Assembly (NCBI RefSeq): GCF_024138125.1
Contig: NZ_CP099993.1
Span: 2,852,001 to 2,916,000 of the forward strand
Direction: 5' to 3'
Length of the DNA stretch: 64,000 nt
Origin: Halorussus salilacus
Lineage (GTDB): Archaea; Halobacteriota; Halobacteria; Halobacteriales; Haladaptataceae
Shown: piece after piece, positions 3,173 to 12,780 of the stretch
Layout of the letters: every line of letters begins with the position of its first letter
How positions within the stretch are numbered: position 1 is the first letter of the stretch
Notes under the pieces: generated by a model
Databases searched by the model: none
The model's input: the letters and a program-made list of their open reading frames with translations, nothing else
What the model was told of the DNA's origin: nothing
Position numbers and translations under genes: made by a program

Positions 3173-3799
3173 TCACGCGATGTCGCGGCTCGTGTCGATG
3201 CGGACCGACTCGGCGAGTTCGAGCTTGATGGTCTCGGGGAGCGCCCGGCCGCCCCGGAACTTCGGCACCGCGAGCCGCGTCTCGACGGTGTCGCCCGAGT
3301 ACTCGGTGTGCAACTGGAACACCACGTCGGCGACGTGTTCGGTCAGGTCGCGGGTGTCGGGCACCGACCGGCCGTCGAGGCAGTGGAGGACCGCGACGCT
3401 GCCGGTGTTGTGGAGGTGGTTCTGGAGGTCGTTGAGGAAGTTGCGGTAGCGACTCTCCTCGCGGCGCTCCAGCAGGTCGACCGGGTCGATGATGAGGTTC
3501 GAGTCCTCGGGGAGCCGCCGGAAGAGCCGCTGGGAGTGGTCGAGCGGCGCGTCGCCGGGGACCCGGCGCACGTCGGGCGACCCGGTCCGGCCGGGCGCGC
3601 GATTCAGCGCCTCGGTCACGGCGGCCTCGTCGCGGTCGGTCGAGAGGTAGAGCGTCTGGCGCGCCGACGTGAACTCGTAGAGCAGTAGCTCCGCCTGACT
3701 CGCCGGGGGTGCCGACAGCGCGACGATGCTGCCCTTCGGTAGCCCGCCGTCGAGTTTCCGGTCTAACACCTCGATTCCCGTCGAGAGTCGCCGTGCCAC
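3173..3799 (-). CDS. KaiC/RecA-like protein without a functional Walker A motif
   Basis: A 208-residue protein laid out like an archaeal KaiC/RadA-type ATPase: ARRLSTGIEVLDRKLDGGLP is the typical entry, followed by IVALSAPPASQAELLLYEF where GxxxxGKT should stand. The Walker lysine is missing. The strand NLIIDPVDLLE fits a Walker B position. It is related in style to haloarchaeal DUF7504/HTR-like proteins, and its function is unknown. ATP hydrolysis is unlikely, so a scaffold or regulatory role is inferred. A GTG start at 3799 is chosen because the family alignment begins there and a TATA-like box sits about 28 bases upstream. Confidence 0.75.
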   Translation of the reverse strand: MARRLSTGIEVLDRKLDGGLPKGSIVALSAPPASQAELLLYEFTSARQTLYLSTDRDEAAVTEALNRAPGRTGSPDVRRVPGDAPLDHSQRLFRRLPEDSNLIIDPVDLLERREESRYRNFLNDLQNHLHNTGSVAVLHCLDGRSVPDTRDLTEHVADVVFQLHTEYSGDTVETRLAVPKFRGGRALPETIKLELAESVRIDTSRDIA

Positions 3800-3824
3800 G
3801 TAGTTGCACGCGTGTACGCGCCGG

Positions 3825-4517
3825 TCATAAGTATTTGGGCTGTAGGGCTGACACGAGGCGGTCGTGGGCGGCCCGGACCCGGTCGTCGGCGAGCGGGGCC
3901 GACCCCACCTCCGGGACGACTCCGAGGACCGGACAGTCCAGCAGGTCGGCGATTCCCTCGGGCGGGTTCGGTTCGGCCCCGTCGCACTCGGGACCCACCG
4001 CCCGGGAGACGACCGCGCCCGCGACCGGCGTTCCGAGTTCGCGCGCCATCGCGGCGGTCTTGGCGGCGTCGCGCAGGCAGGCGGGTTCGGCGGTGGTCGC
4101 CACGACCGCGGCGTCGGCCACACGGAGGGGCGCGACCGCGTCGGGTCCGGCCCCGGCGGGCGAGTCAAGCAGGACGGCATCGGCGGCGTCGGCGGCGCGC
4201 AGGCCCGCGAGCGCGAGGCCCTCGGTTCCCTCCGCCGGACCGCCCCGCGTGGGACCGCTCGCCGCCGGGAGGACGCGAACGCCCGACGACACCCCGGACG
4301 CCGACGGGCGTCCGGCGACCGCCCTCGCGGGCCACCCCGCCGCGACCGCGTCGAGGCCCGGTCGGCGCGAGACCCCCGCCATCGCGTGGAGGTTCGGCAT
4401 CTCGCGGTCGGCGTCGGCCGCGAGGACCGACCTGCGCTGGCGGGCGAGCGCGCTCGCGACTCCGAGGGTCGTGGTCGTCTTCCCGCACCCGCCCTTGCCT
4501 CCGGCGATGGCTAACAT
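3825..4517 (-). CDS. MinD/ParA-family ATPase
   Basis: A 230-residue deviant-Walker ATPase. Residues 6-14 read GGKGGCGKT, the signature of MinD/ParA proteins, and AADADREMPNLHAMAGV and AVLLDSPAGAGPDAV supply the switch and Walker B regions. Haloarchaea carry several MinD homologues, mostly involved in positioning rather than division-site selection as in bacteria, and this copy lacks an obvious C-terminal membrane-targeting helix. The neighbouring gene 25 bases downstream encodes an inactive KaiC-like protein, and both lie on the same strand. Function beyond ATPase family membership is not readable. Confidence 0.85.
   Translation of the reverse strand: MLAIAGGKGGCGKTTTTLGVASALARQRRSVLAADADREMPNLHAMAGVSRRPGLDAVAAGWPARAVAGRPSASGVSSGVRVLPAASGPTRGGPAEGTEGLALAGLRAADAADAVLLDSPAGAGPDAVAPLRVADAAVVATTAEPACLRDAAKTAAMARELGTPVAGAVVSRAVGPECDGAEPNPPEGIADLLDCPVLGVVPEVGSAPLADDRVRAAHDRLVSALQPKYL
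3826..3835 (-). promoter_or_regulatory. TATA-like box for the KaiC-like gene
   Basis: On the minus strand AATACTTATG lies about 27 bases before the GTG at 3799, the spacing of a leaderless haloarchaeal transcript. The box overlaps the 3-prime end of the upstream MinD-like gene. Confidence 0.55.
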
Positions 4518-5600: not shown

Positions 5601-5656
5601 GGAACCCGGTGAGCGACCCTCGGAGCCCGGTGAGTGGCCCCAGAACCCGGTGAGCG
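5601..5656. repeat. Short imperfect tandem repeat upstream of thioredoxin gene
   Basis: Three copies of a 14-15 base core close to GAACCCGGTGAGCG recur with a period of about 20-21 bases between cysK and the thioredoxin gene. No known function. Confidence 0.6.
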
Positions 5657-5735
5657 ATTCGACGCGAGTCGGAACTCCGCGGGGAAGTTCGCCGCAGCCT
5701 GTGTGGTTAAAGCCGTCGGGCCACAACGTCCGGGC

Positions 5736-6107
5736 ATGGAATCGACCGAACCGAGTCAGACGTGGGACGCCGCGGCGCACAGCGAGGTCGTCGGCGCGCT
5801 CGAAGCCGGAATCGCGGAAGTGACCTACCGGGTCTGGGGAGCCGACTGGTGTGGCGACTGTCGGGCGGTCCTGCCCGACTTCTTCGCCGCGCTCGAAGCC
5901 GCGGGCGTCCCGGATGAGGAGGTCGAGGTGCACGAAGTCGACGAGGACAAGGACGGCGAGAAGGTCGCCGAGTACGACGTGACCCACATCCCGACCATCG
6001 TGGTCGAGCGCGAGGGCGAGGAACTCGTCCGGTTCGAGGAGAGCGAGGACCGACCCGCCGCGCGGTACGTCGCTGACCGACTACTGGAGTCGGACGTGAT
6101 GGCCTGA
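5736..6107 (+). CDS. Thioredoxin-family protein
   Basis: A 123-residue cytosolic thiol-disulfide protein. The active site is WCGDC, with Cys39 and Cys42, and the cis-proline loop is HIPTIVV around Pro86. The N-terminal 25 residues are an acidic extension ahead of the thioredoxin fold. WCGDC is unlike the classical WCGPC and is closer to archaeal thioredoxin-like reductases. The start MESTEPSQTW was taken because the sequence upstream is low-complexity repeat. The gene stands alone, convergent with the CHAT gene (7 bases between the stops). Confidence 0.88.
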   Translation: MESTEPSQTWDAAAHSEVVGALEAGIAEVTYRVWGADWCGDCRAVLPDFFAALEAAGVPDEEVEVHEVDEDKDGEKVAEYDVTHIPTIVVEREGEELVRFEESEDRPAARYVADRLLESDVMA

Positions 6108-6114
6108 GAATCCG

Positions 6115-8295
6115 CTACTCGCTCGTCGCGTCGCCGAGGAGTTCGTCGCTCCACGTCAGTTCGCCGTCCGCGACGAGCGGGGCCGCCTCCTCGCGGAGTA
6201 GTTCCCGAACTCGGGTAGCCGGGGGCTCGACCGTCTCCAGCGGCCCGCAGGTCAGGTAGTAGGTGGGGTCGTCGTCTTCGAGGAAGAACGGCGACCCAAT
6301 CGACCCCATCGGGTACTCCCGGACGGTGTACCTGACGGCCGTCACCGGGACGCGCTCGCCGGGCGGTCCCTCCGACGGGTCGCCCGCCAGCTCGAACAGT
6401 ACCGGCGCTCCGTCCTCGCACTGGACGACGCTCGCGCCGGGGTCGCCGAGGGTCACGTAGTGGCGGCCGATGGAGGTGTACTCCTCGGCGATGGAGACGG
6501 CGCTTCCGATGGGGAATCCGTAGTTGAGCAAGCGAGCGAGCGTCTCGCCGACCTCCACCGCGCCCTCGTTGCCCACGTCGGCGACCGTGACGATGGACGC
6601 CCTCGCGCCAGCGTCCACCAGTCCGACCCCCTGCTCGTAGGACCGACACGCGTTCAGCAACACCGTCGTCGCTCCCACGTCGTCGAGCGCCGTCGCGTCG
6701 AGGACGCCGTCGGGGCACTCGAACCCCCGGCCGTCGATGTGGCCGACGAAGTGGAACAGGTCGGTCTCCTCTGCGAGCAGGTCCCGGAGCTGGTCGGTCG
6801 AGACGCCGAACCGACAGTCGGTGTCGAACCGGACGACTTCCCGGTCGCCGTAGAGTCCCGCGACCGAGTCCCACTCCTCGCGCATCGCCTCGTCGTTGCA
6901 GACCACGGTCACGGTGATGGTGCCGTCGGCCGACGCCTCCCCGGCGCGGTCGACCGCGCCGGGGAGGAGCTTCGACCCGTGGACCGGGGCCCCGTCGCCG
7001 ACCCACGCCCGTTCGAGCGCGTCGGTCTCGGGCAGGGGGACGTACTCGCCCCTCCCGGGGATGCCCCGGGGGTCGTCGTCTGGCCCGCCGGTCCGCTTGA
7101 ACGACGCGACGGACTCGCTCTGGCCGGACTGGTCGCCCGACTCCGGACGGTCGCCCGTCTCGGCGCGGTCGTCCCCGCCGGAGTCGTCCCCGCCGGAGCG
7201 GTCGGTTGCCACCGACCGCTCCGGCGACCGGACCCGGACCAGCGAGAGGTCCTCGACCACGGACGGGAGCGACTCGACGCCCGTGGCCGACGGGCGGGTG
7301 TAGACCACGCGGTCCCACGTCGGGACCGCGTCGGCGACCGCCGAGAACGGTATCGAGAGGTAGGTCTCCAGCTGTTCGGCCAGCGGCGCGTCGTACAGCG
7401 ACGCGAAGTCGAGGTCGACCGCGGGGTTCGATTCGAGGACCCGCCGCTCGTGGAGGGGCGACCGGAAGTACCCCTCGGTCCGGACGGCGGCGTCGAACAG
7501 CAGGAGCCGCTTCATGACCCGCGCGACCTCGTCCTCGAACCCTCCCGGGCCGTCCAGCGCGTACGAGAACCCGGTGTCGGTGGTCAGCACCGGCGCATCG
7601 CCGGGGACCACCGCCGCGCCGAGGTAGTACGCGAGCGGCGCTATCGGGAACGCGAACTCGTACTCGGGCGGAACCCGGAGGGTGACGCCCGAGTCGGGCG
7701 GTTCGAGCCCCTCGGGAATCGAGAGTTCGTCACCCCGGCGCAGTCGGGGCGGGTGCCCGCGGAGGGTCGGCCACGACCGCTCGCAGGTCGTCGTCTTGAG
7801 CGCCGACCCGAACGTCGAGACGCCCCGGAGGACCGCGGCGGGGTCGTCGGGGACCACGACCGTCTCGGCCGGAGAGGTGTGGAACGACCGCGCGCCGACG
7901 CCGACCCGGGTCGGGTCGCCGAACTCCAGACGGGTCCCGTCGTCGTCGGCGTCGATTCGCAACGGCGAATCGACCCGGAGGTAGAGCTTGATGGGCGTGC
8001 TCAGCAGTTCGAGCAGGTACTCGCCCGCTTCGAGGTCGCGGACGCACGGGGGCTCGGCGTTGGCCAGCTGTGCGCCGGTCGCGGCGTCGCGGACGACCGT
8101 CACGATTGCGTAGGGGAGTTCGATGCGCTCGGTCGAGATCGCGCACGCCGACGAGACCGGAAACGCGAACTCGCCGGTGTCGGCCGGGGTCGGCGAGACC
8201 TCCTCGGGCGTGTACACCGCGAACTGGCGGTTCTCGATGCGGTCTTCTATCTCCAGCCCGTTCCCGTCGTCGAGCGTGTCGAATCGTGGTTCCAT
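6115..8295 (-). CDS. CHAT-domain protein (caspase-like protease)
   Basis: A 726-residue protein whose C-terminal third is a CHAT domain, a caspase-like cysteine protease fold. The catalytic dyad is visible: His519 in FHFVGHIDGRGF and Cys550 in VLLNACRSYEQG, each after a hydrophobic strand, followed by IVTVADVGNEGAVEV. The N-terminal 350 residues are beta-rich with no domain I can name, and no TPR repeats are evident. Residues about 357-400 are an acidic low-complexity linker that begins at a perfect palindrome in the DNA. The gene lies 22 bases after a DUF7504-like gene on the same strand, probably one operon. Bacterial CHAT proteases act in regulated proteolysis and defence. The substrate here is unknown. 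Confidence 0.8.
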   Translation of the reverse strand: MEPRFDTLDDGNGLEIEDRIENRQFAVYTPEEVSPTPADTGEFAFPVSSACAISTERIELPYAIVTVVRDAATGAQLANAEPPCVRDLEAGEYLLELLSTPIKLYLRVDSPLRIDADDDGTRLEFGDPTRVGVGARSFHTSPAETVVVPDDPAAVLRGVSTFGSALKTTTCERSWPTLRGHPPRLRRGDELSIPEGLEPPDSGVTLRVPPEYEFAFPIAPLAYYLGAAVVPGDAPVLTTDTGFSYALDGPGGFEDEVARVMKRLLLFDAAVRTEGYFRSPLHERRVLESNPAVDLDFASLYDAPLAEQLETYLSIPFSAVADAVPTWDRVVYTRPSATGVESLPSVVEDLSLVRVRSPERSVATDRSGGDDSGGDDRAETGDRPESGDQSGQSESVASFKRTGGPDDDPRGIPGRGEYVPLPETDALERAWVGDGAPVHGSKLLPGAVDRAGEASADGTITVTVVCNDEAMREEWDSVAGLYGDREVVRFDTDCRFGVSTDQLRDLLAEETDLFHFVGHIDGRGFECPDGVLDATALDDVGATTVLLNACRSYEQGVGLVDAGARASIVTVADVGNEGAVEVGETLARLLNYGFPIGSAVSIAEEYTSIGRHYVTLGDPGASVVQCEDGAPVLFELAGDPSEGPPGERVPVTAVRYTVREYPMGSIGSPFFLEDDDPTYYLTCGPLETVEPPATRVRELLREEAAPLVADGELTWSDELLGDATSE
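7191..7226. repeat. In-frame palindrome inside the CHAT gene
   Basis: Arms CGCCGGAGCGGTCGGT and its exact complement (16 bp) surround the loop TGCC. The coding strand reads SPERSVATDRSGGDD, at the start of the low-complexity linker. Confidence 0.85.
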
Positions 8296-8317
8296 CTGTC
8301 GGCGCGTGGCGTCGGTC

Positions 8318-9091
8318 TCACATCGGCATCCAGTCGGTCGTCAGCTCCCGGCTCGGAACGTGCCAGCGCTCCTCGGCGTCGTGGTCGCACGTCGCGGGGT
8401 CGACCGCGCGTATCTCGACGACCGCGTCGAACTCGGGGGCCAGCGACTCGACGCGCTCGCTGTCGTACGGTCTCGGCAGGACGTAGTGGCCCATCCCGGC
8501 GTAGTCGGCGACGTAGCCGGTCACCACCCGGAGGCAGCGACGGACGACGCCGTCGTCGTAGTGGCCGAACAGCGATTCGAGCGAGTCGACGCCGACCCGG
8601 AGTTCCCCGGGCCGCAGGCCGCCCGCGAGCTGATTGAACGCCGCCATCCCCTCGGTGAGCTGGGCCTGCAGTCCCGCGAGCTGGGGGTCGACGACGTGGG
8701 TCTCCGCGATGCCGGGCAGGTCGGCTGGCGAGCTACCAGCGTCGTCGGTCACCGACCGGGGCGGCGAGGCGTGGTTGACGATTCGGGTCGTCTCCCCCAG
8801 CGGCTCCGGGGCTTCGTCGGGGTCCGGGAGGCGTTCGGCGACGCTCCGCGGGCTCGCGTCGGTGACCGCGAGGAGCCGGTACCGACGCTCCTCGGGGTCG
8901 CCGAGCAGGCCCGCGCTGGCGCATGTGAACAGGTGTCTCGGGGCGTCGCCGACCACGAGCAGGTTGCATCCCTCGGCCTTCAGCTCCCGGAGAACCTCGC
9001 GGAAGTCGTCGGTCTCGGTCGGCGATTCACCGACCGGGTCGGCGTCGCTCCCGACCCCGTCCCCCGGAGAGTGAGAACTCGGTGAACTCAT
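8318..9091 (-). CDS. DUF7504-like (HTR-like) protein, inactive KaiC fold
   Basis: A 257-residue haloarchaeal protein with a disordered acidic N-terminus (1-28), then CNLLVVGDAPRHLFTCASAG where a Walker A loop would be, RYRLLAVTD as the next strand, and a C-terminal alpha/beta half with LRPGELRVGVDSLESLF. The P-loop lysine is absent, so it probably does not hydrolyse ATP. I assign it to the DUF7504/HTR-like group with moderate confidence. It is the first gene of a two-gene operon with the CHAT protease and could be its sensor or adaptor, which is inference from gene order only. A TATA-like TTTATTA lies about 27-31 bases before the ATG. Confidence 0.7.
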   Translation of the reverse strand: MSSPSSHSPGDGVGSDADPVGESPTETDDFREVLRELKAEGCNLLVVGDAPRHLFTCASAGLLGDPEERRYRLLAVTDASPRSVAERLPDPDEAPEPLGETTRIVNHASPPRSVTDDAGSSPADLPGIAETHVVDPQLAGLQAQLTEGMAAFNQLAGGLRPGELRVGVDSLESLFGHYDDGVVRRCLRVVTGYVADYAGMGHYVLPRPYDSERVESLAPEFDAVVEIRAVDPATCDHDAEERWHVPSRELTTDWMPM

Positions 9092-9116
9092 CCGATTGTA
9101 CGTGGGATGTATCGGT

Positions 9117-9124
9117 AATAAACC
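9117..9124 (-). promoter_or_regulatory. TATA-like box of the DUF7504-like/CHAT operon
   Basis: On the minus strand GTTTATTA sits about 27-31 bases upstream of the ATG at 9091, fitting a leaderless transcript. Confidence 0.55.
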
Positions 9125-12057: not shown

Positions 12058-12780
12058 TCAGAGGAACGACTTCGGGATGCCCGAGTCGGCCCAGAGGTAC
12101 ACGTCGTCGGTCGCGGGCCACGTCTGGGGCGTGCCGTCGTACCGGACCTCCTGATGGAGGTGGATGCCGGTGGAGTTGCCCGTGTCGCCGGTCCAGCCGA
12201 TGAGCTGACGCCGGTCGACGCTCTCGCCCTGCGACACCTCGTACTCCGAGAGGTGGGCGTACAGCGTGTCCCACGCGCCTTCGTGGTCGACGATGACGGT
12301 GTTGCCGTAGCCGCTGATCTCCCCGGTGTGCGAGACGGTGCCGCCGCGAGCCGCGGTGATCTCTCGGCTCCCGCCGTCGGTGTGGGCCATGTCGACGCCG
12401 GAGTGGTCGCGTCCGTCGCCGTGGGTCGCGGTGATGTAGTCGTACGACCCGTAGCCGAAGTCGGCGGCGGGCGCGTACTGCTGGACCGCCCACCCGGTGT
12501 AGCGGTTCGGGTCGTTGGCGTCGCCGTTGACCCGGAACTTCCACCAAGTGTAGCCGTCGCTCTCGACCGGGCCGTCGACGACGAGCATCCCGGTGTTCTC
12601 CAGCGCCGTCCGCTTGACCGCGTAGTCGGTCCCCGGCCCCTCGCGGATGTTCAGGTCGGTGTTCGTGTAGCACGGGAGGCCGACGCTGTGGGCCGACACG
12701 GAGCCCGACATCGCCGCGGTGCCCGCGATTCCTGTTGCCGTTGCCTTCAGAAACGTTCGGCGGTCGTATTTCTCTCTCAT
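12058..12780 (-). CDS. Tat-exported M23-family metallopeptidase
   Basis: A 240-residue secreted protein. The N-terminus MREKYDRRTFLKATATG is a twin-arginine signal, with cleavage probably after SVSA (about 30). Residues 40-100 look like an SH3-type domain (DLNIREGPGTDYAVKRTAL). Then comes the M23 (lysostaphin-type) zinc site: His126 and Asp130 in DHSGVDMAH, His176 in LYAHLS, and His207/His209 in GIHLHQEV. Archaea lack murein, so its target may be a peptide or bacterial wall material from competitors. This is inference. The upstream intergenic region is AT-rich, as expected for a promoter. Confidence 0.85.
   Translation of the reverse strand: MREKYDRRTFLKATATGIAGTAAMSGSVSAHSVGLPCYTNTDLNIREGPGTDYAVKRTALENTGMLVVDGPVESDGYTWWKFRVNGDANDPNRYTGWAVQQYAPAADFGYGSYDYITATHGDGRDHSGVDMAHTDGGSREITAARGGTVSHTGEISGYGNTVIVDHEGAWDTLYAHLSEYEVSQGESVDRRQLIGWTGDTGNSTGIHLHQEVRYDGTPQTWPATDDVYLWADSGIPKSFL

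Follow-up and report, generated by a model that had tools for sequence, protein, structure and literature searches.

The locus and its predicted transcription unit

Two adjacent minus-strand genes, one encoding a CHAT-type protein of 726 residues and the other a protein of family DUF7504, were analyzed in a stretch of 64,000 nucleotides from Halorussus salilacus (contig NZ_CP099993.1, positions 2,852,001 to 2,916,000; hereafter the window, to which all positions below refer). The source is a Halorussus genome of 3.6 Mb (G000 in our set). Comparisons with other haloarchaea suggest that this locus is one copy of a multi-copy CHAT-protease module, of which a further member, the small gene DUF7503, is missing here. 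The features of the locus are the following:

5634 to 6107, plus strand: thioredoxin-fold gene, which touches the CHAT stop codon, occupies the usual place of DUF7503 and lies outside the module
6115 to 8295, minus strand: CHAT-type gene, 726 residues, with the open reading frame given in the initial annotation
6646 to 6648, minus strand: codon of the predicted catalytic Cys550 (LNAC motif), a residue kept in 64 of 64 homologues
6739 to 6741, minus strand: codon of the predicted catalytic His519 (GH motif), likewise kept in 64 of 64 homologues
8318 to 9091, minus strand: DUF7504 gene, 257 residues, in the same predicted operon and 5' of the CHAT gene
9116 to 9124, minus strand: TATA-like element GGTTTATTA predicted for the DUF7504-CHAT operon, approximately 25 to 33 nucleotides before the DUF7504 ATG

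The spacing between the DUF7504 and CHAT genes is 22 nucleotides. A TATA-like TTTATTA lies approximately 28 nucleotides 5' of the DUF7504 ATG and is kept in orthologues, where GCGAAAGTTTATTAA, resembling a B recognition element followed by a TATA box, was found at the equivalent spot. With a TATA-like element in front of the DUF7504 ATG and no promoter evident in the 22-nucleotide gap, both genes are most simply read as one near-leaderless transcript, a co-transcription predicted from the DNA. The upstream YyaL-like gene ends approximately 100 nucleotides away and lies outside the unit.

A CHAT-type protein with an invariant His/Cys pair

The initial annotation had described a complete CHAT dyad, His519 and Cys550, in the larger protein. 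Both residues were found at these positions, the histidine within LFHFVGHID and the cysteine within LLNACRSY, and together with H515, C527, N548 and S552 they showed no change in any of the 64 distinct full-length homologues, so that loss of the pair was not seen. The protein comprises a conserved N-terminal region (residues 1 to approximately 345), a linker of low conservation (approximately 350 to 415), the CHAT region (approximately 455 to 620) and a less conserved C-terminal part (approximately 620 to 726). Pfam scans recognised no domain in the N-terminal region, in agreement with the annotation, which had found none in the first 350 residues or so.

Matches to the Pfam CHAT model (PF12770) were marginal. 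The window protein reached an E-value of 0.23 (11.3 bits) over its whole length and 0.0059 (16.5 bits) for the domain alone, missing the curated cut-off of 24 bits, and in the scan of the window's own genome the model again stayed under the cut-off. PF12770 was matched by 23 of 42 relatives (best E-value 1.3e-5) and was the sole family recurring among them; no TPR model appeared in the Pfam matches of these 42 proteins. Searches of PDB sequences returned no match with the full CHAT profile and, with the CHAT region alone, a single "CHAT domain-containing protein" at a non-significant E-value of 0.18. The name CHAT-type is used here because the dyad context is shared while the profile cut-off is missed and the caspase-like fold is putative; kinship with the superfamily is likely.

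DUF7504, a putative pseudo-KaiC partner that diversifies together with the CHAT protein

The 257-residue protein is an unambiguous member of DUF7504 (PF24336; E=1.1e-46, 160 bits against a cut-off of 27 bits). It had been annotated as KaiC-like with a lost P-loop. Indeed, Walker A (GxxxxGKT) is absent from it and from the aligned CHAT-associated DUF7504 proteins, whereas the same-genome DUF7504 paralogue L044 retains GPPMTGKR; a Walker-B-like DSL is retained in the window protein. The kinship to KaiC itself is suggestive, not proven: a PDB search with a profile of 25 DUF7504 proteins found KaiC chains only, weakly (E=0.004) and over the Walker B region, and hhalign placed the DSL region in register with a same-genome KaiC at a probability of just 1%. 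DUF7504 may share the Walker B region of KaiC-like ATPases and differs from them in the loss of Walker A. The CHAT-associated subfamily is set apart by a C-terminal (E/Q)RWH...TTDW motif, and QRWH does not occur in the other DUF7504 members of the window's genome.

At L045 (G000:C1:199917-203441) the DUF7504 protein is extended at its C-terminus by a winged-helix-like part, and a response-regulator gene comes next, which suggests that DUF7504 is a signalling module in wider use among haloarchaea. A second KaiC-like gene lies near the locus itself, at 3173 to 3790 on the minus strand, as the C-terminal part of the open reading frame 3173 to 4180. This part matches DUF7125 (7.6e-83) and the KaiC ATPase model (3.9e-9), and its P-loop is degenerate too (SAPPASQAE).

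The pairing proposed from this single locus recurs across genomes. Of the 99 CHAT matches listed from 18 Halorussus genomes, 60 are accompanied on their contig by a DUF7504 gene no more than 1 kb away, on either side. Both gene orders are represented among the pairs (DUF7504 upstream in 51, downstream in 14). CHAT and DUF7504 distances in 65 curated pairs were correlated (Mantel r=0.72). When DUF7504 was shuffled among paralogues of the same genome (2000 trials), the correlation averaged 0.26 and did not exceed 0.46. Because the observed value exceeds every within-genome shuffle, these protein distances indicate that CHAT and DUF7504 diversify together beyond species history.

DUF7503 is the most constant partner of the CHAT gene

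At loci with DUF7504 downstream, the gap of approximately 340 to 400 nucleotides after the CHAT gene carries a small open reading frame on the opposite strand; when both strands of the CHAT-then-DUF7504 gap were searched, a recurrent frame was found on the opposite strand only. It corresponds to Pfam DUF7503 (PF24335; E-values down to 1.5e-17). With a profile made without the last eight residues, so that the Gly-Pro end described below was not presupposed, 84 distinct DUF7503 members were collected from CHAT loci, none of them in the window. Of the 48 DUF7503 genes in 39 genomes of 22 genera, 47 face a CHAT gene tail-to-tail, and a tail-to-tail DUF7503 was found at 81 of 121 CHAT relatives. 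The two stop codons are -4 to +18 nucleotides apart in 77 of 83 pairs; of the remaining pairs, four are separated by 52 to 260 nucleotides, while in the other two there is an overlap, of 17 nucleotides in one and 32 in the other. CHAT and DUF7503 also co-diversify (r=0.57, against a maximum of 0.25 in shuffles). DUF7503 is therefore the most constant CHAT partner across haloarchaea. The initial annotation had proposed an undescribed two-gene system; neither window protein matched PADLOC or NCBIfam, which is consistent with novelty, and the two-gene composition overlooked this third partner.

By Pfam, approximately half of the full-length CHAT proteins in the 39 genomes have a DUF7503, and those inspected that lack it mostly belong to a divergent second group. 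In the window's genome, three of five CHAT genes have one (two over the cut-off, one weak at E=0.99), and a DUF7503-like open reading frame accompanies the divergent fourth CHAT gene. At L056 (G017:C1:889000-908000) a tandem CHAT pair was observed, and neither DUF7503 nor DUF7504 was detected close by. Two further candidate partners, PAS/receiver proteins (7 loci) and DUF7344-like helix-turn-helix proteins (5 loci), were considered and dropped, several of these loci being mere synteny; genes of both kinds are abundant in haloarchaea.

Apparent loss of DUF7503 in the clade of the window copy

The window locus holds no DUF7503, and the thioredoxin gene that stands in its place also touches the CHAT stop codon in several orthologues. 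The window copy belongs to a clade of 19 CHAT proteins, two of them with DUF7503. Because this clade is nested among DUF7503-bearing Halorussus clades, the absence looks like a secondary loss; the FastTree tree on which this rests is in practice unrooted, its outgroup sequences having been filtered out, and some of its supports are weak. Since the window copy retains an intact dyad, a neighbouring DUF7503 is not needed for its function.

These losses bear on the idea of a toxin-antitoxin system, in which CHAT would be toxic and DUF7503 and/or DUF7504 would act as antitoxin-like inhibitors. Although the co-diversification of CHAT with each partner would suit such a system, DUF7503 is missing beside intact CHAT genes of the window clade and beside most of those in the divergent group, and in other families approximately half of the loci are devoid of DUF7504. 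An antitoxin acting in cis ought not to be dispensed with so often, and we therefore consider this explanation very improbable.

DUF7503 resembles an exported peptide precursor

DUF7503 proteins have approximately 44 residues, with a variable start. A proline (80 of 84 members) followed by Arg or Lys (80 of 84) precedes a conserved hydrophobic stretch, GxLFTxxLLLxQAGN, after which come (V/A)-x-A and 7 to 9 residues to the C-terminus. The -3/-1 rule of signal peptidase is satisfied at one column in 75 of 84 members, against at most 45 at the other columns tested, and the tail after this predicted site has 9 residues in 63 of 84. Tails are hypervariable (80 distinct forms in 84 members), with entropy peaking right before a near-invariant Gly-Pro, which forms the C-terminal end in 80 of 84. 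The constraint on Gly-Pro acts on the protein, since every synonymous Gly and Pro codon is used; in moderately similar pairs, third codon positions vary most. The four members at L023, L025, L028 and L089 end in TIR, TIA, TIG or TIS, possibly a second peptide class. Judging from the signal-peptidase column test, DUF7503 looks like the precursor of a small peptide that is exported or sits in the membrane.

The expression signals of DUF7503 are also its own. A motif, TTnCTnTnGGAAnnnTTTAGAAAAATAGA, was found at -58 ± 3 upstream of most members, scores low 5' of most DUF7504-CHAT operons, and has its exact core once in the window's genome, at a DUF7503 gene. At L140, L141, L143 and other DUF7503 loci the promoter is non-canonical and fixed in position, with a TTTAGAAAAATAGA core at approximately -43 that lies within an AT-rich stretch, which suggests a dedicated regulator.

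Such features invite a signalling interpretation, in which DUF7503 would be exported and cut by signal peptidase to yield a Gly-Pro peptide of 7 to 9 residues that serves, directly or after re-import, as a ligand of CHAT; the CHAT N-terminal region would be the receptor, DUF7504 a regulator, and the paralogues private signal-receptor pairs. The single signal-peptidase column, the constant length of the tail, its variability up to the fixed Gly-Pro and the dedicated, position-fixed promoter all speak for it, as does the co-variation of the tail alone with CHAT (r=0.39, against a maximum of 0.14 in within-genome shuffles), even though shared ancestry of the paralogues could explain the latter. 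Against it, the DUF7503 leader shows a sequence conservation that ordinary signal peptides do not have, and the A-x-A site is missing in divergent, cysteine-rich members. Moreover, genes for a transporter or for re-import do not recur beside the loci, and the window copy has no peptide. On balance we regard this interpretation as rather unlikely. Its fullest form, in which secreted hypervariable Gly-Pro peptides each have their own CHAT protease and pseudo-KaiC, giving many private signal-protease pairs per cell, is doubtful.

Peptide pheromone/receptor pairs of the RRNPP type offer an analogy only: there too a short secreted-peptide-like gene lies by a putative receptor and the paralogues co-diversify, whereas here the putative receptor would be a CHAT protease, the gene is convergent and the peptide ends in Gly-Pro. 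A mature DUF7503 peptide was also considered as the density signal of Haloferax volcanii; no link was made, because that signal is resistant to proteinase K (mBio 2025, PMC12240190).

Distribution and genomic neighbourhood

The CHAT family was found in 102 of the 118 genomes of the order, and DUF7503 in 97 of them. Outside the order, four genomes of one other family matched CHAT in the sample of the phylum, and no others did. In these four (L168 to L171) the CHAT relatives lie near DnaG-like and toprim-like genes; inspection by eye recognised no DUF7503 or DUF7504 beside the gene, and the His/Cys dyad context is lost in L168. CHAT copies also occur on haloarchaeal megaplasmids. Almost all of them carry the annotation "hypothetical protein", while one is entered as "caspase family protein"; the open reading frame annotated at the DUF7503 position is likewise "hypothetical". 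A scan of genome contigs for related loci returned one locus. H. volcanii has matches to DUF7503 and DUF7504 and likely carries a CHAT gene as well; no match was obtained there with the Pfam CHAT model, which detects this family poorly.

Elsewhere in the window, a gene at 12058 to 12780 on the minus strand encodes an archaeal protein with a twin-arginine translocation signal and the domains SH3_3 and Peptidase_M23. The usual target of M23 enzymes is peptidoglycan, which archaea do not make. Archaeal peptidoglycan hydrolases able to kill bacteria have been described (PMC12352652).

In the initial annotation the pair was likened to abortive-response systems. In an anti-virus system of that kind, DUF7504 would sense infection, CHAT would kill or arrest the cell and DUF7503 would be a membrane-active effector with gasdermin-like logic. 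The small, hydrophobic nature of DUF7503, the many paralogues, some of them on megaplasmids, and the action of CHAT proteases in prokaryotic immune loci elsewhere, such as the RNA-activated Csx29 that cuts Csx30 (PMC10028731), are compatible with it. Nevertheless, neighbours, distribution and viral contigs yielded no positive evidence for the analogy. PADLOC gave a single marginal and unrelated match among the 42 CHAT relatives, and its matches among 112 neighbour proteins were isolated and mostly generic, a result read with no control set of random neighbours. Moreover, neighbours are largely metabolic or unassigned, the family is carried by most genomes of the order, some loci at least show synteny between species, and no relative was confirmed when viral contigs were scanned with the CHAT profile. 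An abortive role is thus improbable.

A gated protease as the preferred interpretation

We tentatively prefer, at somewhat less than an even chance, a gated protease in which CHAT is controlled by the pseudo-KaiC protein and acts on DUF7503. CHAT would be an intact His/Cys cysteine protease, and DUF7504, having lost ATP binding and being made from the same transcript, would bind and gate it. DUF7503, encoded tail-to-tail under its own promoter, would be a small peptide precursor, exported or inserted in the membrane, and the target of CHAT, which most likely cuts it in its cytosolic part, at the conserved Pro-Arg/Lys ahead of the hydrophobic stretch. Clan CD proteases that prefer Arg or Lys at P1 are known. 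Activation of CHAT would lead to cleavage of DUF7503 and hence to peptide release or membrane signalling. In the window clade, where DUF7503 seems to have been lost in cis, CHAT might act in trans on DUF7503 proteins encoded elsewhere in the genome, or on a different substrate. The protease activity, the complex of CHAT with DUF7504, the direction of regulation, DUF7503 cleavage and export are all predictions from sequence comparison.

Several observations weigh against this scheme. The predicted signal-peptidase site (75 of 84) would place mature DUF7503 outside the cell, away from a cytosolic CHAT. Outside Halorussus, DUF7504 is missing at approximately half of the CHAT loci inspected. In the window clade and in the divergent second CHAT group the dyad is kept although most members have no local DUF7503, so that DUF7503 cannot be an obligatory cis substrate. 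Two AlphaFold2 models made from two-sequence alignments had mean predicted local distance difference test (pLDDT) values of 37.8 and 35.2, the CHAT model among them at 35, and gave no supporting fold or complex. The gated protease may also be combined with peptide signalling.

Relation to known systems and significance

Some CHAT/caspase-like proteases are paired with bacterial gasdermins. The haloarchaeal loci share with these pairs a protease gene adjoining the gene of a membrane-directed protein, in many copies; DUF7503 differs in its length of approximately 44 residues, its one hydrophobic segment, its Gly-Pro end and the lack of a gasdermin domain. Among CHAT proteases (PF12770, clan CD), Csx29, the TPR-CHAT protein of type III-E CRISPR systems (H615/C658), cleaves Csx30, a protein of the same locus (PMC10028731). 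The likeness lies in the His...Cys dyad and its GH...LNAC context, and a partner-dependent logic like that of Csx29 in Craspase is plausible for the haloarchaeal CHAT too. The haloarchaeal protein differs in having no detected TPR, in falling under the Pfam cut-off and in its DUF7503/DUF7504 partners, and Pfam scans of the window flanks and of the top neighbour families elsewhere revealed no Cas7-11/gRAMP or other CRISPR genes. By analogy, the module may work like Craspase-type CHAT systems, of which it is not a member. In the library searched, which excludes subscription papers, no paper mentions DUF7503 or DUF7504, and none combines "CHAT domain" with "haloarchaea".

A strong, stress-linked caspase-like activity has been reported in H. 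volcanii, with the enzyme not identified and Archaea said to be without caspase gene homologues (PMC3615174). The CHAT family provides candidate genes for this orphan archaeal activity, as far as sequence can tell; the Asp-P1 specificity of the H. volcanii activity is not predicted for the family. The family supplies a candidate of the caspase superfamily, carrying a conserved His/Cys pair, for 102 of the 118 genomes of the order, and the H. volcanii activity makes this family directly testable in a laboratory strain. In most haloarchaea the precursor-like DUF7503 gene, with a conserved leader, a hypervariable tail and a constant Gly-Pro, is tied to the gene of a protease, an unusual arrangement, and the multi-copy CHAT gene, the degenerate KaiC-like protein and, mostly, DUF7503 together make up an unstudied protease module of salt-loving archaea. 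If private peptide-CHAT pairs do exist, they would mean that archaea communicate or recognize themselves through peptides, the switch being a caspase-like enzyme.

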